Positions 1 through 17,973 of a stretch of 18,300 nucleotides of DNA are shown here, one piece after another. The first letter of the stretch is position 1, and every line of letters begins with the position of its first letter. The position numbers were made by a program, and so were the translations under genes. Under the pieces are notes generated by a model that was not told the origin of the DNA, made no database searches, and saw only the letters and a list, made by a program, of their open reading frames with translations. Source of the stretch: Porticoccus sp. (GTDB lineage Bacteria; Pseudomonadota; Gammaproteobacteria; Pseudomonadales; Porticoccaceae); the NCBI GenBank assembly GCA_011049795.1, contig DRHD01000079.1, forward strand, positions 1 through 18,300, written 5' to 3'.

Positions 1-1288
1 CAACAACAGCGTTAGAAGCATCTCGGCAAGTAATATCGTCCAAATCCCACCCTGCTAGAGAGGAAGGTTCAGCCGCGTTGTAGGCACCTGGTATTAAGTC
101 ACCAAATTCTAGAGCTGAACCATCATCGCTCGTTGAATCAGGCGATCCAGGTAATGCTACACCACCAGTCCCAGCACCTTCTGTAGCACTAAATTCGAAG
201 AGTGTACTATCAGGTGTCGGGTCGGTTTCTTTGATAATAATCAATTCACTACAGGTATTTAGACTCCCTAACGCGTAGTCAAACAGGTTAGCAGTGATGG
301 ATTGCGAAGCACGTGTTTCAAACATAAATGACCCAAGACAAATTTCACTTGCATTGGGTAACAACCCTGTAAAATTAATCGCAACTTCAAAGTACATATT
401 CTCAGCCAGAACACCGACACCACCGACATTAGACTCTGTAGGCCACGCAGGCATTATATTGCTGGTGTTTGTAGAAGCGCATAAGTCCACAGTTAAAGAT
501 CCAGGAGAGGGTGTTTGAGAAGCACAAGTATTCGCCGTGATGAATGGCATTTCTATCAAGTCATCTGCCGGGAGTTCTTCACTACATTCCGATATATCGT
601 TAGGACCAGGGTCACCCAGACATTCGTCACCGTTTTCTTGTAAAGGTGCACAACTTACAGCGTCGCCTCCGCCATCAATGCATTGCCAATAGTCGGGATC
701 CAACCAGTAGAAAGCTTGGACGTTGGATAGCGTGCCCCCATTGGTAAAATTACTAATAAATAAAACATCTCTATCCGTTCTTTTACCAACAAAATCTCCA
801 GAACCACTGGAATCACATCCCACTTCTTCCTGGAATAACCATAAACCCATTTGGGCATTACCATTGTTTGAGTAACGATCAACGGCACCAAACAGTAGAA
901 GGTCTCCACCATCGTTAAAGCCTGTCATCATGGCTGCTTGAATATCACCTTTGTTCGATGGGTTCATTTTTACAACGCAACCCCAATCTGAAAGTGGTTG
1001 ATTATCTTTGTTGCTTGGCTGGTGATATGTCGGGTCGGGCACAGATACAGAATTATCAGGTGAGAAAGATGACAAATCCGGCACAATCAACCAAGACGGA
1101 CTGCCATTAAAATCATTGTATATATCATCGCTATCGTTCAAACCATTGTTTTGCAACGAATCGCCGTCTGTGTCAAAAAATGGGGTGTCATTTATAGCAA
1201 ACACCGCCACTGTTATGCTCATTAATATGGCGAAAACAATGACTAGCACCGACATATGTTTATGAATAAACCCTGATACCTTTTTCAC
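1..1288 (-). CDS. Secreted protein with prealbumin-like fold domain, N-terminal part (runs off the left edge)
   Basis: The reading frame starts at GTG (1288-1286) and stays open for 429 codons to the window edge, so the C terminus is missing. The start is chosen because AAGGAG (1301-1296) lies 7 bases upstream and because a classic Sec signal peptide follows: KK, a hydrophobic stretch at about residues 13-31, and likely cleavage after VFA31. The mature protein opens with an Asp/Asn-rich stretch (about 39-59) containing a D-x-D-G-D calcium-loop-like motif. Next comes a domain (about 60-205) with GDLLLFGAVDRYSNNGNAQ and DVLFISNFTNGG, a pattern I associate with large bacterial surface proteins that carry SpaA/prealbumin-like repeats. 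A Cys-rich linker follows. From about residue 345, the CSELIIIKETDP start and the later GDLIPGAYNAAEPSSLAGWDL resemble a prealbumin-like (SpaA/SdrD B-type) domain. No anchor is visible because the end is missing. Function unknown; probably extracellular or surface exposed. A riboswitch candidate lies in its leader. Confidence 0.85.
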   Translation of the reverse strand, partial: MKKVSGFIHKHMSVLVIVFAILMSITVAVFAINDTPFFDTDGDSLQNNGLNDSDDIYNDFNGSPSWLIVPDLSSFSPDNSVSVPDPTYHQPSNKDNQPLSDWGCVVKMNPSNKGDIQAAMMTGFNDGGDLLLFGAVDRYSNNGNAQMGLWLFQEEVGCDSSGSGDFVGKRTDRDVLFISNFTNGGTLSNVQAFYWLDPDYWQCIDGGGDAVSCAPLQENGDECLGDPGPNDISECSEELPADDLIEMPFITANTCASQTPSPGSLTVDLCASTNTSNIMPAWPTESNVGGVGVLAENMYFEVAINFTGLLPNASEICLGSFMFETRASQSITANLFDYALGSLNTCSELIIIKETDPTPDSTLFEFSATEGAGTGGVALPGSPDSTSDDGSALEFGDLIPGAYNAAEPSSLAGWDLDDITCRDASNAVV

Positions 1289-1289
1289 G

Positions 1290-1301
1290 ACCCAACTCCT
1301 T
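1290..1301 (-). promoter_or_regulatory. Ribosome binding site of the secreted-protein gene, with complementary leader segment
   Basis: On the minus strand AAGGAG (1301-1296) precedes GTG (1288-1286) by 7 bases, which decides the start. The adjoining AGUUGGGU (1297-1290) is perfectly complementary over 8 bases to leader segment ACCCAACU at 1445-1438, so the site can be masked by the leader RNA. Confidence 0.6.
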
Positions 1302-1435: not shown

Positions 1436-1520
1436 ACAGTTGGGTGGGTGAAAGAAACGTCTAGATAAGTTTGTTTGAATTGACTGCCAAACAATAAGAA
1501 CCACCTCGACCCCAAACTGT
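1436..1520 (-). promoter_or_regulatory. Candidate riboswitch expression platform (alternative pairings)
   Basis: RNA from this strand contains ACAGUUUGGG (1520-1511) just downstream of the aptamer. It is complementary to CCCAACUGU (1444-1436), giving nine pairs with one bulged U. The same CCCAACU segment is also complementary to the RBS-adjacent AGUUGGGU (1297-1290). The two stems cannot form together, as expected of an anti-anti-Shine-Dalgarno / anti-Shine-Dalgarno arrangement. No U-tract follows either stem, so translational rather than transcriptional control is the better guess. Which state the ligand favours cannot be read from the sequence. Confidence 0.45.
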
Positions 1521-1527
1521 TGTCTGA

Positions 1528-1638
1528 AGCTTTTCGGTAGTCCGGCCGTCTGGATGGTGACCCGTGGCTTTGCGTAGTTTGCTGACTGCTTCTACTGCTT
1601 AAAGAATATCCCTAGCAACACTTTGCCTTTTCCTAGCT
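1528..1638 (-). ncRNA. Cyclic di-GMP-I (GEMM-I) riboswitch aptamer, candidate with extended P2
   Basis: Read on the minus strand, the conserved GEMM-I blocks appear in order: AAAAGGCAAA (1631-1622), a hairpin, ACGCAAAGCCACGGGUC (1575-1559), a short loop, then GACGGCCGGACUACCGAA (1550-1533). GGC and GCC can close P2. P1 is short, AGCU (1638-1635) with AGCU (1531-1528). The residues that by eye match the ligand contacts of the Vibrio Vc2 aptamer (G20, A47, C92) are kept, which fits cyclic di-GMP rather than cGAMP. The P2 hairpin is odd. AGUgUUGCU pairs with AGCAAACU (8 bp, one bulge), but the top is a roughly 30-base insert containing a direct repeat AAGCAGU with 9-base spacing, in place of the usual short GNRA-capped stem. 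The predicted transcript start lies 2-3 bases upstream. The aptamer is followed by a plausible expression platform and then the secreted-protein gene. Confidence 0.68.
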
Positions 1639-1646
1639 GCCACATA

Positions 1647-1968: not shown

Positions 1969-2001
1969 AAAAAAACCGGCTGCAGTCATACTGCAACCGG
2001 T
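1969..2001 (-). terminator. Rho-independent terminator of the gsp operon
   Basis: On the minus strand ACCGGTTGCAGT-ATG-ACTGCAGCCGGT forms a 12-pair stem with one G-U pair and a 3-base loop (2001-1975), followed by a run of seven T (1975-1969). It starts 33 bases after the gspD stop codon. A smaller hairpin, CCCTC/GAGGG at 2019-2004, lies between the stop and the main stem. Confidence 0.92.
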
Positions 2002-2034: not shown

Positions 2035-4191
2035 CTATTTAAAACCGGATAAGTCCACGCCTTGTAGTTTAGCTTTATATTCATCTGTCACCCGACGGGC
2101 CTCTTGTGGATTGCCCACTGCACTTGGGGTGATCATAACCACCAGTTCAGTTTTGAAGGTACTGGTGCTCTTGCTTCCAAACAGAGCCCCCAGAAAAGGA
2201 ATGTCTTTGAGATAGGGGATACCACTCTCAGATTCCTCCTTATTCTCACGGATCAAACCACCCAGTACGATAGTTTCACCGCTCTGCACAGCCACAGTTG
2301 TGGTGATTTCCCGCTGCAAGATAGTGGGTGAATCAATGCCCGATGTCGTGGTTCTACCCACATCATCAACCTTCTGAGTAATCTCCATCGTCACCATACC
2401 GCCGGCGTTCACCCGAGGAGTTACTTCCAGGGTAACGCCAGTATCCCGGTACTGAATCTCACTGGTGATATTCGATGAGAATCTATCATCTCCTACCGGC
2501 ACGAGACTACTCGTATTAGTAGTTTCAGAGGTACGAATAGGCACCTGATCACCAACACGAATGATCGCCGTGTGGTTATCCAGCACCATTAATGAGGGAG
2601 ACGACAGTACTTTCAGATCGCTATCGCCCGCCGCCGCATTAAGTACCGCTCTAGTGCCCGCTGCATCGAAAACGGCATAGGTGAAGTTGACAGGGCTAGT
2701 TAGCAAGTCCTCAATACCGGGAAGGCCGGGGGGGGGGGTAATACCGGGAAGACCGGGAGAGCCAGTATCATTAATATTCAGCCCACCAATGCTATTGTAT
2801 TTACCGAGACTTCCTTTAAAAAACCACTGCAAACCGTATTTCAACTCATGCTCAAGTCGCACTTCCACAATGGAGGCTTCAACCAGAACCTGCATTGGGA
2901 GTACATCCAGTTTTTCTACGGCTTTTTCCACTTGTGCGTAGTCGGCGGGCGTAGCCAATATCAGCAGGGAATTGTTTACCGGATCAGGAATAATAGTGAC
3001 ATCACCAACATCAACACTGGAAACCCGCTCATTTGCCCGTGTAACCGGAGCCCCATCTTCGCCCTCAGCTGGTGCCGGTAACGGTGTTGCTGATTCTCGT
3101 TGCTCTTGAGCCAGCGCATTGCGGCGCTTACCTTCAAATAGCTGGTTCAACACATCCGCTAGATTTTCTGCCTTGCCGTTTTGAACATAGTAAACATACA
3201 TATTCATCCCATGGGGATTTTCTGCCTGATCCAGACGTTCAATCCAGATTTCCACGTCGTTGAGATATTTCTCCTGTGCGCTAATAACTAGTAAAGCATT
3301 AAGCCGATCCATTATCGTAAAGCGTACCAAACCTGCTAAAGGGCCTTCGGCACTGCCACCAAAGATAGCTTCCAGCTCATTCAGCATGGTTCCGGCATCC
3401 ACATTCTTCATGCGAAATAGACCTACAGACATGCCCTTGAGCTGGTCTACATCAAAAATGGAAATGGTTTCGCGTAGATTAAATAACTCACCATGAGTCC
3501 CCGTTAACATCAGCAGATTACGAAACTCATCGGCCTGCACTTTGGATTTTCCAGATTTCACTGGCTCCAGAATTTTCGCCATTTCCTTTGCACCAATGTA
3601 GCGTAAGGGCACAACCAGCATCTGATAACCACGGTCTGCACTCAATCGAGTACCGGGTGTTAAACCAGACAGGGCGCCTTCATCGATAAGAACAATTTCA
3701 TAGAAATCCTGGCTTTTAATAATGGCCGCACCATTCATTCGTAGCAGATTATCCAATACAGAAATCAGGGCATCCTGTGCTACTGGGCGTGCAGTGCGCA
3801 TGGACACTGAACCGTTCACCGCATCATTAATGACGTAATTGACCCCGAGAATGTCCCAAAGAATGGTTTTTACCACTTCCGCAATCGGGGAGTTCTGGAA
3901 ATTCAAGGTAACCTCGCCCTCGGTATCTTGCTGCCCTCCCCCTGCGGCCGAGTTGATAAAATGGCCACTACCCCCAAACACCTCTTTTAAGGGTACTGGC
4001 TCCCCTTGTTCCACTGGGATTACGGGACCAGATGATTCTTTATACGGCGGCATACTATTAACCGCAGCTGGCGCAGCTTTCCCAGTGGTAGGGGTGCTGG
4101 CGGAAGGCATCGTACTGGTCGTTGAATTACAAGAGGTAATTAATAATGCCAAGATGGCGACTGGCGCCAAATGCCCAAAGACATACTTCAT
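2035..4191 (-). CDS. gspD: Type II secretion outer membrane secretin GspD (XpsD-like lipoprotein)
   Basis: Forms the multimeric outer-membrane channel through which folded proteins leave the periplasm. The 718 residues begin with a lipoprotein signal peptide (lipobox ITSC, Cys21, followed by Asn, so outer-membrane sorting is expected). XpsD-type secretins are also lipid modified, which can make a separate pilotin unnecessary. The N0 domain lies at about 92-170 (VTLNFQNSPIAEVVKTIL), followed by N1, N2 and N3 to about 465. N3 carries a hydrophilic Ala/Pro/Glu insertion. The secretin domain covers about 470-700 with VGDQVPIRTSE, the conserved VTLEVTPRV block and GETIVLGGLI. A Pro/Gly stretch with two PGLPGI copies at about 477-492 is encoded by an 11-C tract. 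The start is ATG behind AAGGAG at 7-base spacing. It is the last gene of the operon, 61 bases after gspN and followed by a strong terminator. Confidence 0.96.
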   Translation of the reverse strand: MKYVFGHLAPVAILALLITSCNSTTSTMPSASTPTTGKAAPAAVNSMPPYKESSGPVIPVEQGEPVPLKEVFGGSGHFINSAAGGGQQDTEGEVTLNFQNSPIAEVVKTILWDILGVNYVINDAVNGSVSMRTARPVAQDALISVLDNLLRMNGAAIIKSQDFYEIVLIDEGALSGLTPGTRLSADRGYQMLVVPLRYIGAKEMAKILEPVKSGKSKVQADEFRNLLMLTGTHGELFNLRETISIFDVDQLKGMSVGLFRMKNVDAGTMLNELEAIFGGSAEGPLAGLVRFTIMDRLNALLVISAQEKYLNDVEIWIERLDQAENPHGMNMYVYYVQNGKAENLADVLNQLFEGKRRNALAQEQRESATPLPAPAEGEDGAPVTRANERVSSVDVGDVTIIPDPVNNSLLILATPADYAQVEKAVEKLDVLPMQVLVEASIVEVRLEHELKYGLQWFFKGSLGKYNSIGGLNINDTGSPGLPGITPPPGLPGIEDLLTSPVNFTYAVFDAAGTRAVLNAAAGDSDLKVLSSPSLMVLDNHTAIIRVGDQVPIRTSETTNTSSLVPVGDDRFSSNITSEIQYRDTGVTLEVTPRVNAGGMVTMEITQKVDDVGRTTTSGIDSPTILQREITTTVAVQSGETIVLGGLIRENKEESESGIPYLKDIPFLGALFGSKSTSTFKTELVVMITPSAVGNPQEARRVTDEYKAKLQGVDLSGFK
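2728..2738. repeat. Homopolymer tract of 11 G (11 C in the gspD sense strand)
   Basis: An uninterrupted run of 11 G on the plus strand reads as ACC CCC CCC CCC in gspD, coding Thr-Pro-Pro-Pro at about residues 484-487. The frame is intact on both sides at this length. Tracts of this kind can slip during replication, and they are also prone to sequencing error. Confidence 0.95.
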
Positions 4192-10781: not shown

Positions 10782-12518
10782 TCAGGCCTCCTGTGTCACA
10801 CGTACCACTTCTTCAATGGTAGTGAGTCCCTGTAATACTTTGTGGCAACCATCCTCGAACATGGAGTGCATTCCCTCCTGTTTGGCAGCCTGTTCAATTT
10901 TTCTGGCACTGGCATGCTGCAAGATCAACTCGCGTATCGGGTCTGACATGGGTAGCATTTCAATAATGCCAACCCGACCAAGATAGCCTGTTCCACCGCA
11001 GCCCTCACATCCACGAGCATGATAGAGCTGCAATTCACCCTCAGAATGTAATTTATCCAAGCCAAACTCACGAATAAGACCTTCATTGGGACTATAGGGT
11101 TCTCGACAGTGTTCACATAACGTTCGAACCAGTCGTTGCGCCACAACCATGTTGAGGGTGGAGTTCAAGAGATAGTCCTCCACCCCCATTTCCATGAGTC
11201 GGGTAATACTACTGGCAGCATCGTTAGTGTGAAGCGTAGACAGTACCAAGTGGCCGGTCAGGGCTGACTGCACACAAATTTTAGCTGTCTCCAGATCACG
11301 CATTTCACCCACCATAATCACATCCGGGTCTTGGCGAACAATGGAGCGTAATGCGCTGGAGAAACTGAGTCCGATGGATGAGTTCACCTGAATTTGGTTG
11401 ATGCCCGCCAGGTTGTACTCTACCGGGTCCTCCACGGTAATCACTTTGCGCTCTTCCGTATTGAGGCTATTCAGTGCGGTATACAACGTCGTGGTTTTAC
11501 CACTACCCGTGGGACCGGTGACAACAATCATGCCGTGGGGCATATCCAGTGATTGCTTGAGTCGCTGACGAGCTGTATCACTAAAGCCCAAACTGGGAAA
11601 ATCTAGCGCCACTGTTTCACGATGCAGTAACCGCATCACCACACTCTCCCCATACATGGTGGGAATGGTGGACACACGAATATCCAAATCTTTCCCCTGT
11701 ACCCGCAGATTAATCCGGCCATCTTGGGGCAAGCGGCGCTCCGCAATATCCAGATCGGCCATGATTTTCACTCTGGAAATAACGGCTGGACCCATCTGCT
11801 GGGAGGGTGACGCTTCATCCCGCAACACACCGTCAATGCGATAGCGGATTTTCAATTGGTTTTCAAAGGGCTCGATATGAATATCAGATGCCCTGGCATC
11901 CACTGCTCGCTGGACAACTTGGTTCACCAATCGGATAACGGGGGCTTCACTGGCCATATCCCGAAGCTGGGCTACATCGTGCTCACTCACGTCGTCTGAT
12001 TCAGCGGTACTTCTACGGTTATCGACATCACTTTCACTGAGATAGAGCTGGGTGATGAACTTCTGAATGTCTGAACTGATGCCGACACAGGGTTTAACCT
12101 TCATTCCAGAGGCCATGGCAACTGCTCGTAACGGGTAATCTGCCACGGGGTCAGCCATCGCCAACTCCAGCACACCATCATCAACACGAACAGGGATGAC
12201 CAGCTGCTCTTTGAGGAAACGACCGGACAATTGATCTTTTAACAGGGGAGTATCGGGATAGTCGGTCGCTTTAACCAAACACTGACCTGTCACCTCAGCC
12301 ACAGCTTCTGCCATGGCTCGCTCGGACACCATCCCCAATCGAACCAACAGAGATACCAGCGATTCATCTTCCAGCTGTTCTGACTTCACCCGCTTTGCAC
12401 GAGCAAAATCCACTTCTTTGACGGCGCCAGCATCAACTAACCTGTTCTTCAGGTTCCGCTCAAATTGAGCCGTATCACCGCCTTCAATTTCAGTAGCTAT
12501 GTCCTGAATCTCTTCCAT
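10782..12518 (-). CDS. gspE: Type II secretion ATPase GspE
   Basis: Cytoplasmic hexameric ATPase that powers pseudopilus assembly. From ATG 12518 it has 578 residues. The N-terminal GspE/MshEN-type region (about 1-150) is followed by the ATPase core with Walker A GPTGSGKTT (Lys near 340), the Asp box VITVEDPVEYNL, Walker B RQDPDVIMVGEMRD (Met where Ile is commoner) and the His box GHLVLSTLHTNDA. A zinc-binding tetracysteine module follows (CEHC near 469, CEGC near 506, then GGTGYLGR). A GTG at 12542 would add 8 residues; neither start has a strong Shine-Dalgarno site. It is the first gene of the gsp operon, two bases from gspF, and is separated from the upstream mce gene by a terminator. Confidence 0.96.
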   Translation of the reverse strand: MEEIQDIATEIEGGDTAQFERNLKNRLVDAGAVKEVDFARAKRVKSEQLEDESLVSLLVRLGMVSERAMAEAVAEVTGQCLVKATDYPDTPLLKDQLSGRFLKEQLVIPVRVDDGVLELAMADPVADYPLRAVAMASGMKVKPCVGISSDIQKFITQLYLSESDVDNRRSTAESDDVSEHDVAQLRDMASEAPVIRLVNQVVQRAVDARASDIHIEPFENQLKIRYRIDGVLRDEASPSQQMGPAVISRVKIMADLDIAERRLPQDGRINLRVQGKDLDIRVSTIPTMYGESVVMRLLHRETVALDFPSLGFSDTARQRLKQSLDMPHGMIVVTGPTGSGKTTTLYTALNSLNTEERKVITVEDPVEYNLAGINQIQVNSSIGLSFSSALRSIVRQDPDVIMVGEMRDLETAKICVQSALTGHLVLSTLHTNDAASSITRLMEMGVEDYLLNSTLNMVVAQRLVRTLCEHCREPYSPNEGLIREFGLDKLHSEGELQLYHARGCEGCGGTGYLGRVGIIEMLPMSDPIRELILQHASARKIEQAAKQEGMHSMFEDGCHKVLQGLTTIEEVVRVTQEA

Positions 12519-12583
12519 AAAACCCGATTCCCAACGACTCACGTGGAAAGAACTTGCTCCACTGGTTACATAAGTGTACTCGT

Positions 12584-12751: not shown

Positions 12752-13156
12752 TTACTCCTGCTCCAGCTCAACTAACGTACCACAAAAGTCCTTGGGGTGA
12801 AGAAACAGTACCGGCTTGCCATGGGCACCAACCTTTGGCTCACCATTCCCCAACACACGGGCACCTGCCGAAACCAGTTTATCCCGTGCAGCCTGAATGT
12901 CTTCGACTTCATAACAGATATGATGCATGCCACCATCGGGGTTACGTTCAAGAAATTTCGCCACCGGCGAATTATCGCCAATGGGTAATAATAACTCGAT
13001 TTTGGTATTGGGCAATTCCACAAATACCACTCGTACGCCATGTTCAGGCAAATCATTCGACGCAGATATTTTTGCACCCAAAGCGTCACGGTAGATTGAC
13101 ACTGCCTTCTCTAAATCGGGGACGACAATAGCCACATGGTTCAGGTTTCCAATCAT
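12752..13156 (-). CDS. mce: Methylmalonyl-CoA epimerase
   Basis: Interconverts (S)- and (R)-methylmalonyl-CoA, linking propionyl-CoA carboxylase to the mutase. The 134 residues make a vicinal-oxygen-chelate (glyoxalase-fold) protein of the usual length. It starts MIGNLNHVAIVVPDLEKAV, with the metal-ligand His7. The family blocks IELLLP, NPDGGMHHICYEVEDI (His78/79), GARVLGNGEPKVGAHGKPV and FLHPKDFCGTLVELEQ (Glu130) all follow. AAGG lies about 8 bases ahead of the ATG. It is the last gene of the propionate operon, 63 bases after meaB. Confidence 0.94.
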   Translation of the reverse strand: MIGNLNHVAIVVPDLEKAVSIYRDALGAKISASNDLPEHGVRVVFVELPNTKIELLLPIGDNSPVAKFLERNPDGGMHHICYEVEDIQAARDKLVSAGARVLGNGEPKVGAHGKPVLFLHPKDFCGTLVELEQE

Positions 13157-13219
13157 TCTGTTACCTTTATTTAATCAATTTCTGTGTCATGTGGGCGCGA
13201 AATAATTCGCATTACCACG

Positions 13220-14218
13220 CTATTTTCGAAATGCATCAATGAGTGTTCTGGCGGCGATAGTCGGCGACACCCGCCCTTGGGTAACTTCTTTTTCCAGACC
13301 GGCCACCAATGATTTCACTGCGTCACTTTCTTTCAATTCTGCCAGAAGCGTATCGGCTGTTTCGCTCCACATCCAGGCGCGGGATTGTGCGGCACGACGT
13401 GCCTCTATTTCACCGGCATTTCCAAGCGCCTCACGAAACTCTTCCACCGATTGCCAAACTTCATCGACACCCTGATTCTTAAGTGCTGATAACGCCTGAA
13501 TTTTGGCCTCCCAGTGTCGGCTACGAGGATGAAGGAAATGCAATGCCATACCGTAATCAGCCACGGTACGATCGGCCGCCGCCTGTTGGTCGCCATCAGA
13601 CTTATTGACCAGCACCAAATCTGCCAGCTCCATAATGCCGCGCTTGATACCCTGCAATTCATCACCACCCCCTGGCAGCAACATCAGCAAAAACATATCG
13701 GTCATCTCTGCCACGGCCGTTTCCGACTGCCCCACCCCAACTGTTTCGACAAAAATAACATCGAAGCCAGCGGCCTCGCACAGCAACAAGGTTTCTCGGG
13801 TACGACGGGTGACGCCACCCAGTTTTTTCCCGGCGGGTGATGGACGAATAAACGCACTGGGGTTTCTGGACAGGGTTTCCATCCGGGTCTTATCGCCGAG
13901 AATAGACCCACCACTGATGGCAGATGTGGGGTCTACTGCTAGTACCGCGACACGATGGCCCTGACCTATAACATAATTTCCGAAAGATTCGATAAAGGTG
14001 GATTTCCCCACCCCCGGCACACCAGAAATCCCCAACCTTATGGAGTTTCCAGTATGAGGCATGATGAGCTCCAATAACTGGGACGCCTGTTCTCGATGAC
14101 CTGGGCTGGTAGATTCAACCAAGGTAATACCCTTGGCCAAGGCCCGGCGGTCACCGCACAGGATACTCTCTGCGAGTTCCTCCGGGATCATCGATACGGT
14201 CATCTGCGGTACGCTCAT
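13220..14218 (-). CDS. meaB: Methylmalonyl-CoA mutase-associated GTPase MeaB (ArgK family)
   Basis: G3E/SIMIBI-type GTPase that guards B12 loading and protects methylmalonyl-CoA mutase from inactivation. The 332 residues fit the family. Motifs are Walker A GVPGVGKST (66-74), AVDPTSAISGGSILGDKTRM (switch region), IRPSPAGKKLGGVTRRTRE, VETVGVGQSE (switch III/Walker B region) and the guanine-specifying NKSD. Older annotations call this family ArgK or LAO/AO transport ATPase; the neighbouring mutase, carboxylase and epimerase genes make the MeaB role clear. ATG 14218 has only a distant GGAG; Met6 and Met10 are alternatives. Confidence 0.95.
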   Translation of the reverse strand: MSVPQMTVSMIPEELAESILCGDRRALAKGITLVESTSPGHREQASQLLELIMPHTGNSIRLGISGVPGVGKSTFIESFGNYVIGQGHRVAVLAVDPTSAISGGSILGDKTRMETLSRNPSAFIRPSPAGKKLGGVTRRTRETLLLCEAAGFDVIFVETVGVGQSETAVAEMTDMFLLMLLPGGGDELQGIKRGIMELADLVLVNKSDGDQQAAADRTVADYGMALHFLHPRSRHWEAKIQALSALKNQGVDEVWQSVEEFREALGNAGEIEARRAAQSRAWMWSETADTLLAELKESDAVKSLVAGLEKEVTQGRVSPTIAARTLIDAFRK

Positions 14219-14261
14219 TTGAATTGTCTATCTCCAGCGATCGGGTCATGGCTGAGAATAT

Positions 14262-14303
14262 TGTACCTTTTACATGGTACCTTCCACACAGCACCTTCCA
14301 CAT
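14262..14303. repeat. Three imperfect 14-bp tandem repeats between pccA and meaB
   Basis: On the minus strand the units are ATGTGGAAGGTGCT (14303-14290), GTGTGGAAGGTACC (14289-14276) and ATGTAAAAGGTACA (14275-14262), with no spacer. They fill part of the 137-base gap ahead of meaB. No known element matches. Confidence 0.6.
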
Positions 14304-14355
14304 TGAACAAGGGTCAGCCTTTGAACCCACCAATCGAGAATAACAGATTTATTTT

Positions 14356-16344
14356 TTACTCAAACTCCACAATCGGCTGATCCACTACCAGGCTATCACC
14401 CTGAGCGGCAGAAACTTTCTTGACTACCCCATCGGCCAATGCGCGCAGGCTGTTTTCCATTTTCATGGCTTCAACCACTGCCAGCTCTTCGCCTTCTTTT
14501 ACGACATCACCTTCCTGCACAGAGAGCTTCACTAACAAGCCCGGCATGGGTGACAGGAGGAACTTGGACATATCTGCCGGCTCTTTATGCAACATATGCC
14601 GGTTGAGTTCTGCAGCCCTTGCAGTGACCACAAAGGCCTCTTTCTGGGCGCCTCGATGGGACATCCGCAGTGATGAACCCACCACATCCACCTGAACACA
14701 CACAGGCTGACCATTAATGCTTGCCTTAAATAACGGCTCACCAAAAGTCCAATGGGTATCAATTTGATAGTGCTTGCCCGCCAACTCAACACCAATGGTC
14801 TGGCCACCGTTTTCAACGGAAACCTCATATTCGGCATCACCACCGTCCATAATCACCACCCAATCAGGGGACGGCTCATATTCATGGCCCGGTAACTGAC
14901 CTGAAATCATGGCGCAACGGTCCCGGTATTTCTTGTTAATAGCGGCGGCAACAACAACGCAGATTGCCGGGTCATCTTGGGGTACCAGATCAGAATTAAA
15001 GCCGTCCGGATATTCCTCAGCAATAAAGTTGGTAGTCAGATCTCCCGCCACAAAGCGCGGGTGCACCATCAGCGCATTCAAAAAACTAATATTATGACTC
15101 ACGCCGCGAATATAATAGGCATCCAGCGCATCCACCATCCGATCGATCGCTTCTTTACGATCCTGACCATAGGTGATCAGCTTGGCGATCATGGGGTCGT
15201 AGTACATGGACACTTCACCGCCTTCATAGACACCCGTATCCACACGCACACCCTCGCCTTCTGGCGGAATATAATGAACTAAACGGCCCGTAGACGGCAT
15301 GAAATTGCGAAATGGATCTTCGGCATAGACACGGGTTTCCATCGCCCAGCCTTTCAGCGTCACATCTTCCTGAGTTAAGGGCAGCGGCTCCCCGGCTGCG
15401 ACCCTAATCATTAACTCAACCAAATCCTGCCCGGTGACAAACTCCGTCACGGGGTGCTCTACCTGCAACCGAGTATTCATCTCCAGAAAGTAGAAATTCA
15501 TATCCGCGTCAGCGATAAATTCCACGGTACCCGCTGATTGATAGTCCACGGCTTTGGCTAACATAACTGACTGTTCGCCCATTTTCTTACGGACTTCTTC
15601 CGTTAAAAATGGCGAGGGGGCCTCTTCAATGACCTTTTGGTGACGACGCTGAATAGAACATTCACGCTCCCCCAGATAAATCGTATTACCATGGCTATCC
15701 GCCATCACCTGAATTTCAATGTGACGGGGTTCCTGAATAAATTTCTCAATAAAAATACGATCATCACCAAAGCTGGAACGAGCTTCGTTGGACGCACGCT
15801 CAAAACCATCGCGACACTCTTCCTCATTCCAGGCGACTCGCATCCCCTTACCACCGCCACCGGCGGAGGCTTTCAGCATGACAGGAAAGCCAATGTCCTT
15901 TGAAATCACAACAGCTTCATCTGCATCTTTTACTACATCGGTGTAACCGGGAATGGTATTCACACCAGCTTTTTCAGCAATCAACTTGGAGGTGATTTTG
16001 TCACCCATGGACTCGATGGCTTTAACACCGGGGCCAATAAACGTGATACCCGCTGCATCCAGCGCTTTACAAAATAATTTGTTCTCAGATAAAAAACCGT
16101 AACCGGGGTGTACGGCATCGGCGCCCGTCTGTTTGCAAGCATCGATAATTTTATCGATAACCAAATAGCTTTCCGCGGAGGCTGCCGGGCCAATATGCAC
16201 CGCCTCATCCGCCATGGACACATGCAGTGCATCTTTATCCGCATCTGAATAAACCGCCACTGTGCCAATACCCATAGCCTTTGCCGTACGAAATACACGG
16301 CAGGCAATTTCACCCCGGTTTGCTACAAGAATTTTTTTAAACAT
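14356..16344 (-). CDS. pccA: Propionyl-CoA carboxylase alpha subunit (biotin carboxylase plus biotin carrier)
   Basis: Carboxylates its own biotin with ATP and bicarbonate and hands the carboxyl group to PccB. It has 662 residues. The biotin carboxylase domain (about 1-450) has NRGEIACRVFRTAKAMGI, HPGYGFLSEN, the ATP-grasp loop KASAGGGGKGMR (about 165) and EMNTRLQVEHPVTE (about 285-298). A BT-type linker domain that binds the beta subunit covers about 500-575. A biotinyl domain at the C terminus carries the attachment site EAMKMEN, with Lys628 as the biotinylated residue. The BT domain and the neighbouring pccB, mutase, meaB and mce favour propionyl-CoA over acetyl- or methylcrotonyl-CoA as substrate. 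There is a 96-base gap after pccB and a weak Shine-Dalgarno site (AGAAG). Confidence 0.95.
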   Translation of the reverse strand: MFKKILVANRGEIACRVFRTAKAMGIGTVAVYSDADKDALHVSMADEAVHIGPAASAESYLVIDKIIDACKQTGADAVHPGYGFLSENKLFCKALDAAGITFIGPGVKAIESMGDKITSKLIAEKAGVNTIPGYTDVVKDADEAVVISKDIGFPVMLKASAGGGGKGMRVAWNEEECRDGFERASNEARSSFGDDRIFIEKFIQEPRHIEIQVMADSHGNTIYLGERECSIQRRHQKVIEEAPSPFLTEEVRKKMGEQSVMLAKAVDYQSAGTVEFIADADMNFYFLEMNTRLQVEHPVTEFVTGQDLVELMIRVAAGEPLPLTQEDVTLKGWAMETRVYAEDPFRNFMPSTGRLVHYIPPEGEGVRVDTGVYEGGEVSMYYDPMIAKLITYGQDRKEAIDRMVDALDAYYIRGVSHNISFLNALMVHPRFVAGDLTTNFIAEEYPDGFNSDLVPQDDPAICVVVAAAINKKYRDRCAMISGQLPGHEYEPSPDWVVIMDGGDAEYEVSVENGGQTIGVELAGKHYQIDTHWTFGEPLFKASINGQPVCVQVDVVGSSLRMSHRGAQKEAFVVTARAAELNRHMLHKEPADMSKFLLSPMPGLLVKLSVQEGDVVKEGEELAVVEAMKMENSLRALADGVVKKVSAAQGDSLVVDQPIVEFE

Positions 16345-16440
16345 AATTTAATCTTCTTCTGGAAATTCTGCTTTTCAACGATGCTTAAGCTCTAAACATC
16401 AAGGTTTCCACTGCTTATAACTTCTAGCCTCAGCGGCTCA

Positions 16441-17973
16441 TCACAAGGGAATGTTGCCGTGCTTACGCCATGGATTCTCAATATCTTTATCACGCAACAT
16501 GGCCAGTGAGCGAGCGACCCGCTTGCGAGTACTGTGGGGCTTGATCACATCATCAATAAAACCACGCTTGCCCGCGATAAAGGGATTGGCAAATTTCTCA
16601 CGGTATTCAGCTTCTTTCGCTGCAATTTTTTCCTTATCACCGATGTCTTTACGGAAGATAATTTCGACAGCACCCTTTGGCCCCATCACCGCGATTTCTG
16701 CAGTAGGCCAAGCAAAGTTCACATCACCACGCAGGTGTTTGGACGACATCACATCGTAAGCACCACCATAGGCTTTACGGGTAATGACGGTAACTTTTGG
16801 AACCGTACATTCCGCGTAGGCATACAACAGTTTGGCGCCATGCTTGATAATGCCACCGTATTCCTGACTGGTACCCGGCAGAAAACCTGGAACATCCACA
16901 AAGGTCAGTACTGGAATATTGAAAGCATCACAGAAGCGAATAAAACGGGCGCCTTTTTTGGAGGCATCAATATTTAGGCAACCTGCCAACACCAAGGGCT
17001 GATTGGCAACCACACCTACTGTTGAACCTTCGATGCGAATAAAGCCAATCACCAAGTTACCCGCATAATCGGGTTGCAGTTCAAAGAAATCACCCTCATC
17101 GGCCACTTTAACAATCAATTCTTTCATGTCGTAAGGCTTGTTGGGATCGTCAGGAATCAATGTATTCAATGACATTTCTGCACGATCGGCCGAGTCATCT
17201 GTGGGCCACACGGGTGGTTTTTCCTGATTATTAGCCGGGAGGTAACTGAAAAAACGACGCAGTTTCACCAATGCATCCACATCGCTCTCAAAGGCCAAAT
17301 CAGAAACGCCTGACTTAGTAGAGTGGGTAATTGCACCACCGAGCTCTTCCGCAGTCACTGTTTCATGAGTCACTGTTTTAACCACATCCGGACCCGTCAC
17401 AAACATGTAGGAGCTATCTTTTACCATAAAGATAAAATCTGTAATGGCGGGCGAATACACCGCACCACCCGCACAGGGCCCCATGATCATAGATATTTGA
17501 GGAACAACACCAGAAGCCATAACATTTTTTTGGAAGACATCGGCGTAACCACCCAGAGAGGCGACCCCCTCTTGAATACGTGCACCCCCGGAGTCATTAA
17601 GACCAATTATCGGCGCCCCGACTTTCATAGCCTGATCCATCACCTTGCAGATTTTCTCGGCATGGGTCTCAGACAAAGAGCCACCAAACACGGTAAAGTC
17701 CTGACTATAAACAAAGACTAATCGTCCATTAATTGTACCGTAGCCCGTGACAACACCATCTCCAGGAATATGGTCCTGCTCCATACCAAAATCTGTGCAC
17801 CGGTGCTCTACGAAAGTATCCCACTCTTCAAAGGTGCCTGGATCAAGCAGCAATTCAATTCGCTCTCTGGCGGTCAATTTACCCTTTGAGTGCTGGGTAT
17901 CAATACGTTTTTGACCGCCGCCAAGGTGTGCTTTTTTACGCTTCTCTTCCAGCTGCTCGACAATCTCGTGCAT
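16441..17973 (-). CDS. pccB: Propionyl-CoA carboxylase beta subunit (carboxyltransferase)
   Basis: Transfers carboxyl from biotin on PccA to propionyl-CoA, giving (S)-methylmalonyl-CoA. Its 510 residues are the usual length. The N-terminal crotonase-like half has [31 protein letters not shown] and the oxyanion-hole glycines of [12 protein letters not shown]. The C-terminal half has [26 protein letters not shown] and [17 protein letters not shown]. The Asp of GAYDVM (about residue 407) sits at the position linked to acyl-CoA size choice in this family and is Asp in propionyl-specific enzymes. The start is ATG behind AGGAG at 6-base spacing. The gene lies 107 bases after the mutase stop. Confidence 0.96.

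Follow-up and report, generated by a model that had tools for sequence, protein, structure and literature searches.

A probable divergent class I cyclic di-GMP riboswitch, without the known docking elements, ahead of a large secreted-protein gene

Which RNA occupies the leader between gspD and the gene that follows it in Porticoccus sp., and might that gene answer to cyclic di-GMP (c-di-GMP)? A sequence-only reading had proposed that a class I c-di-GMP riboswitch precedes a gene for a secreted protein, at 1528..1638 on the minus strand of the window, by which we mean the whole 18,300-nucleotide stretch that was analysed. Our explanation, of high confidence, is a divergent, docking-less class I c-di-GMP riboswitch that is located in the leader of a gene for a large secreted protein and adjoins a type II secretion operon. 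On the minus strand, the leader that carries this RNA separates gspD from the open reading frame at 1288-2; the aptamer ends at 1525, upstream of the GTG at 1288 on the same strand, which makes the RNA the leader of a co-directional gene. The locus is laid out as follows.

2035..4191, minus strand: gspD, the secretin gene of the upstream type II secretion cluster (Pfam Secretin, 3.3e-50)
1969..2001, minus strand: terminator-like hairpin after gspD, between the riboswitch unit and the gsp operon
1525..1642, minus strand: predicted class I c-di-GMP-type aptamer, whole, P1 to P1 (RF03167, R1 and, for the P1 extension, a constrained fold)
1296..1301, minus strand: AAGGAG ribosome-binding site (by eye)
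2..1288, minus strand: presumed regulated gene for a large secreted protein, 5' part, 429 aa, GTG start, open at the window edge

Covariance evidence and aptamer anatomy

At curated cut-offs, no Rfam family reached its gathering score anywhere in the window, so the expectation of an Rfam match above threshold formally failed. A permissive cmscan of 701 bases (1250-1950) against 4227 Rfam families gave RF03167 (c-di-GMP-I-GGC) as the best match, on the minus strand, with model positions 1-80 (full length) aligned to 1636-1532 (32.4 bits, E 1.1e-5). The remaining four matches listed had E-values of 1.3 or worse; the table leaves out two overlapping, lower-scoring matches from the same clan and does not display the window's own RF01051 score. 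The gathering score of RF03167 is 59 bits, an annotation threshold rather than a structural feature. The significant full-length covariance match places this RNA with the class I c-di-GMP riboswitches in the broad sense.

For an independent view we built a covariance model, R1, from 19 relatives picked by eye from 71 RF03167 places, with the window left out. A place qualified if P2 carried GGC in its usual or a simply altered form. The 71 places came from two sources. Among 12 genomes with relatives of the window's GspD, 9 had RF03167 matches at E up to 1, with 10 places at E below 1e-6 and one genome over the cut-off. A setting this loose also brought matches in 6 of 14 control genomes. Among 293 genomes from the order of the relative G003, matches at E up to 0.001 were found in 42 genomes (61 places), 8 of them over the cut-off, and in 0 of the 14 controls. 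In the R1 alignment, 89.9% of cells are paired, compared with 69.2% after shuffling and 44.8% or less when the structure is slid, a control biased in the structure's own favour because the R1 structure was written from the Rfam layout. Covariation is 0.703 versus 0.274 in shuffled alignments; in 17 of 21 pairs, both partners vary. Searched with filters off against all 18300 bases, R1 matched 1636-1532 on the minus strand with 38 bits (E 4.9e-10, the E-values from this tool being rough); the second-best place in the window reached 13.2 bits (E 0.02). A chance likeness, or a structured RNA of another kind, would sit easily with short conserved blocks and scores below the Rfam cut-offs, but the R1 match and the presence of the RNA at the matching position in four other genomes leave that reading barely credible.

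The anatomy of the aptamer was read from alignments to RF03167 and R1 and from a fold constrained to P2 and P3.

1635..1642, minus strand: P1 5' strand UGG(C)AGCU, pairing with 1531-1525 in the constrained fold
1625..1627, minus strand: GGC, with the equivalents of G20 (1627, ligand contact), G21 (1626) and C22 (1625) (RF03167 and R1 alignment)
1576..1622, minus strand: long P2, AGU-G-UUGCU (1622-1614) with AGCAA-ACU (1583-1576), a 30-nt apical part and no GNRA tetraloop
1568..1575, minus strand: ACGCAAAG, with the equivalents of C44 (1574), G45 (1573), C46 (1572) and A47 (1571) (alignment)
1539..1569, minus strand: P3, AGCC-A-CGGGUC (1569-1559) with GAC-GG-CCGGACU (1550-1539), including the G83 equivalent at 1546
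1537..1537, minus strand: C92 equivalent, ligand contact (alignment)
1525..1531, minus strand: P1 3' strand AGCUUCA (constrained fold)

The three conserved blocks named by the sequence-only reading are present on the minus strand and in the order given: AAAAGGCAAA from 1631, ACGCAAAGCCACGGGTC at 1575-1559 and GACGGCCGGACTACCGAA at 1550-1533. Its location for the element also holds; its ends do not, as P1 extends the element to 1642-1525. Closure of P2 by GGC and GCC proved half right: the GC of GGC pairs with the GC of ACGC (G1626-C1572 and C1625-G1573), while the GCC at 1568-1566 is part of the P3 5' strand. P1, P2 and P3 can all form around a three-way junction in the window, bar a single P3 mismatch, C1567.A1541, at a pair that is unbroken in all 19 R1 sequences. 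Mapped by alignment, the equivalents of the contact bases are present as G1627 (G20), A1571 (A47) and C1537 (C92). The interhelical pair, to which we take the Vc2 numbers C44 and G83 to apply, has both bases in place by alignment (C1574 and G1546), and the contact itself is predicted. The roles of the three ligand contacts and of the interhelical pair are as given in the available part of PMC4744006.

Copies after gspD in relatives and the genes they precede

We looked for relatives of GspD in three sets of genomes: 112 from G193's family, with 9 found at an E-value limit of 1e-100; 390 from G273's order, with 7 at a limit of 1e-200; and 140 from G273's family, with 2 at a limit of 1e-150. Together these sets yielded 16 distinct gspD loci besides the window. 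In four of these 16 loci, R1 finds an RNA directly after gspD and on the gspD strand: G193 (49.4 bits, L081), G311 (25.3 bits, L082), G273 (26.8 bits, L110) and G611 (27.2 bits, L147), of which the G193 copy is inside the R1 alignment and the other three are outside it; the G311 copy was missed by R1 in a genome-wide first pass. The other 12 loci gave no R1 RNA after gspD (one contig, L088, ends 651 nt past the gspD match); their weak R1 matches (E 0.051, 0.26 and 0.13) lie on the other strand or elsewhere and are taken as chance, and in L001-L004 and L008 other genes follow gspD, with no R1 match at the site. Closeness of GspD alone does not predict the RNA, because loci with RNA (identity to the window 66% in G193, 67% in G311, 67% in G273 and 63% in G611) are matched by loci without it (64% in G002; 63% in G001, G003 and G383).

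Only the G193 copy passes an Rfam gathering score among the five syntenic RNAs (RF01051, 43.8 versus 35 bits). Against the same 35-bit threshold, the G611 copy scores 31 bits (E 0.0054) and the G311 copy 27 bits (E 0.052), and the G273 copy is absent from the Rfam matches at E up to 0.1. The equivalents of G20, C22, C44 and A47 are identical in all five RNAs, and C92 is kept in all five 3' ends, whereas P2 and the P3 tip vary among the copies. The covariance scores, the kept contact bases and the copies in four genomes, one of them over the RF01051 cut-off, thus make it the best reading that, as had been proposed, the secreted-protein gene is preceded by a class I c-di-GMP riboswitch. On three grounds, covariance model, contact bases and synteny, we predict with confidence that 1642-1525 of the minus strand is an aptamer of the class I c-di-GMP (GEMM-I) type.

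This conservation bears on whether the window RNA still works. An RNA that descends from a working aptamer and has lost binding in Porticoccus sp. would be expected to look worn, and the window RNA does so in some respects: R1 gives it 38 bits against 49.4 for the G193 copy (a comparison that favours G193, which is in the model), one P3 pair is mismatched, there is no tetraloop or receptor, and the fold is no better than shuffled sequence. Decay is nonetheless improbable, since P2 and the P3 tip vary from one syntenic copy to another without loss of the contact bases, the identical P3 C.A mismatch recurs in the G611 RNA (AGCC with GACU) and all three helices can form in the window. The leader is most likely c-di-GMP-responsive, ligand binding being predicted from the aptamer.

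Selectivity for c-di-GMP is predicted from just two bases, the G at position 20 and the C at 92. The GGDEF matches number 25 in G193, 15 in G273 and 13 in G311, some of them pieces of one domain. The Hypr signature is a serine at the tested place of the GGDEF motif. None of the 20 readable loci among the 25 GGDEF loci of G193 has such a serine, and all have D there; together with the G at position 20 in the window and its four syntenic copies, this argues against the same aptamer fold serving a different ligand, such as 3',3'-cGAMP. That alternative, which we consider very unlikely for the window, draws on rare class I variants that bind c-AMP-GMP (PMC7266159, as far as its available text goes), on the binding of cGAMP by a G20A mutant (in the accessible portion of PMC7288161) and on an A at position 20 in 3 of 5 G193 RNAs. 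These three (L077 4178-4082, L077 4807-4717 and L076 15795-15699) combine A at the G20 equivalent with a U22-A45 pair, and two other class I RNAs from the same G193 region have the G there; the paralogous G193 leaders may include some whose ligand choice is altered or relaxed. Elsewhere (L050, L055, L057, L058, L060, L062 and others) GCC and ACGG replace GGC and ACGC, a swapped P2 pair and a frequent form, and RNAs of this form precede short frames that look exported by eye.

The protein encoded after the window RNA begins MKKVSGFIHKHM, and an N-terminal motif of this protein is present in the downstream proteins at three of the four syntenic loci: G193 (MKRVAGFVHRHM, 1792 aa), G273 (MVMKSVKGFIRKHV, 1112 aa) and G611 (MKRVKGFVHRHL, 1413 aa). 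At the fourth, G311, a collagen-like frame without that motif follows past a run of N. The window fragment has a prealbumin-like SpaA_4 stretch below the Pfam cut-off; in Pfam, SpaA_4 matches 10 stretches of the syntenic G193 protein (E 6.5e-97), DUF11 and DUF7507 match the G273 protein, and DUF7507 matches the G611 protein. Among 293 genomes, four carry homologues of the window protein: G193 has three such genes, and G273, G018 and G172 have one apiece. A protein database yielded 17 homologues at E up to 0.001, including one 334-aa fragment with 100% identity. A class I RNA lies ahead of four of the six homologous genes in the four genomes: the G273 gene is preceded by the syntenic RNA, and each of the three in G193 has one on its own strand, 0.9-1.2 kb upstream, a long distance at which a shared transcript is possible. 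The G018 and G172 genes have no R1 match upstream. In G018, an R1 match of 35.9 bits (L078 1245-1318) lies on the other strand from the homologue, just before a 604-aa frame with metallopeptidase-like and cadherin/Big_9 Pfam matches that is its convergent neighbour.

Other genes of the window were also surveyed. The region 12752-17973, upstream of the gsp cluster, holds a glyoxalase-family gene, meaB, a biotin carboxylase carrying a propionyl-CoA carboxylase BT domain, and a carboxyl transferase. GspE (window 10782-12542) has a Pfam match to MshEN, which the available part of PMC5013675 describes as the c-di-GMP-binding domain of MshE. GspE was considered as a second c-di-GMP receptor and dropped: the key R, G and Q residues of the motif in that part of the paper are missing by eye, and the motif in GspE looks degenerate.

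Leader folding and a possible switch

The sequence-only reading had set the transcript start at the 5' edge of the aptamer, on the strength of a predicted promoter. We dropped this idea, as a consensus scan of 1200-2100 found no sigma-70-type promoter (0, with 2.6 expected). The terminator-like hairpin that follows gspD at 2001-1969 suggests that the RNA has its own promoter, between that hairpin and the aptamer. The folding energy of the minus strand is not unusual (z +0.84 versus shuffled), and its minimum-energy fold differs from the aptamer: constrained to the aptamer, the fold has -18.3 kcal/mol against -22.9 for the best free fold, a cost of 4.6 kcal/mol that ligand binding could cover. 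Two downstream segments enter into the question of how binding might be read out.

1498..1519, minus strand: post-aptamer segment CAGUUUGGGGUCGAGGUGGUUC, candidate anti-aptamer arm (free leader fold and duplex test)
1438..1453, minus strand: UUUCACCCACCCAACU, predicted to sequester the start region (leader fold; duplex -19.2 kcal/mol)

Sequestration of the start codon by 1453-1438 stays no more than an idea: it is predicted by the fold, but the leader-to-start duplex is no better than in shuffled leaders (80/500), and forcing the aptamer fold leaves the predicted access to the start codon unchanged.

The anti-aptamer arm offers another route. In the free leader fold, GGACUACC (1543-1536; the P3 3' strand plus C92) pairs with GGUGGUUC (1505-1498), and GCUUCAGAC pairs with GUUUGGGGU; the corresponding arms are GCUGGACUACC and GGUAGUCCGGC in G611 and GCUACCG and CGGUAGC in G273. 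Such a hairpin can be formed in four of the five syntenic copies. With 2000 shuffled versions of the 70 downstream bases as the background, the duplex reaches p < 0.05 in only two of the five (0.0095 in G611 and 0.0155 in G273) and is not significant singly in the window (0.10), G193 (0.12) or G311 (0.39); combined over the five copies, Fisher's method gives 0.0016. A run with 200 shuffles, which leaves out L042 and the near copy L053, placed the duplex at rank 10 or better in one of four syntenic RNAs, one of three additional RNAs from G193 and 7 of the 38 remaining ones. In L017, L026, L028 and L063, a long anti-aptamer hairpin is followed by a U run, with the look of a terminator. Behind the window arm stands UUAUUGUUU, which makes a poor U-tract, so the hairpin there may act either on termination or on translation.

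These observations are compatible with the following model. P1, P2 and P3 would fold around c-di-GMP, read by G1627 (G20), A1571 (A47) and C1537 (C92), and the bound ligand would hold the P3 3' strand, C92 and the P1 3' strand within the aptamer. When ligand is absent, that strand would pair with the downstream GUUUGGGGU...GGUGGUUC segment to form the anti-aptamer hairpin. Ligand would thus prevent the hairpin, and high c-di-GMP would most likely turn the gene ON, by blocking early termination at the hairpin or by freeing the start region. We infer the ligand, the ON direction and the platform, and we give this anti-aptamer ON model roughly an even chance.

Relation to described class I riboswitches

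Class I has been divided into type I, with a GNRA tetraloop and its receptor, and type II, usually with a GYRA tetraloop and without a receptor (PMC11218506, in the part available). A script for GNRA loops closed by at least three pairs, which by eye misses some imperfectly closed loops, found none in the window, G193 and G311 syntenic copies, and its match in G273 lies outside P2 (position 8). By the same script, GNRA occurs at the P2 tip in 31 of 40 other relatives, one of them a shortened sequence. Of the 40, 7 have a receptor-like pattern, which all four syntenic copies scripted (window, G193, G311 and G273) lack, and G611 has neither tetraloop nor receptor by eye. Both hallmarks of type I, the GNRA tetraloop and the receptor, are thus absent from the window RNA and from the four copies syntenic with it. 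With type II these RNAs share the absence of a receptor, but the GYRA tetraloop is missing from all five, as follows from the lack of a GNRA loop in P2. The span from C22 to C44 is 50 nt in the window, 31 in G193, 45 in G311, 47 in G273 and 49 in G611; it is 21 in L036, counted by eye. The G193 RNA at L077 4717-4807 also has a longer, GNRA-less P2, so a long P2 is not confined to the syntenic five. Judged on these features, the five syntenic RNAs fit neither type I nor type II. The evidence supports the window RNA as a broad-sense class I c-di-GMP riboswitch that is below the cut-offs of both curated families and outside both described types, with binding predicted.

These RNAs suggest that class I c-di-GMP aptamers may persist without type I tetraloop-receptor docking and without the type II tetraloop, and that docking-less copies fall below Rfam cut-offs, one in five of the syntenic RNAs (G193) being called. 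They provide five natural sequences with which to gauge the importance of docking to affinity, and they suggest that c-di-GMP is tied to a family of large exported repeat proteins adjoining type II secretion genes. Taken jointly, the parts could describe a third structural type within class I, marked by a long P2 and lacking both tetraloop and receptor, that forms an inherited link between the type II secretion operon and the adjoining large secreted protein in a group of Gammaproteobacteria, acts ON through an anti-aptamer hairpin and is missed by curated models in most copies. We offer this joint reading tentatively, at a little under even likelihood.

The closest curated family is RF03167 (clan CL00126), the best and full-length match, which resembles the window RNA in its AAAAGGCAAA and CGC.AAGCCACGGGUC blocks and in having no receptor drawn in P3. 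It differs in that the window scores 32.4 bits against its gathering score of 59, has a P2 insert of 46 nt rather than 17 and lacks a GNRA loop. With RF01051 and the Vibrio cholerae riboswitches Vc2 and Vc1, the window RNA shares the G20, A47, C92 and C44/G83 equivalents and the P1-P2-P3 layout, and it departs from them in its long P2 and in having no tetraloop or receptor. GbpA belongs to the secreted adhesins. According to the available part of PMC4744006, Vc1 acts on the levels of GbpA. A further parallel comes from M. nitratireducenticrescens GP59, in which c-di-GMP riboswitches lie beside PEP-CTERM genes (PMC12530212, in its available text). The target family there is a different one, and that text mentions no type II secretion operon; as far as it describes them, GP59 and G193 are alike in carrying several class I riboswitches before exported-protein genes in one region.
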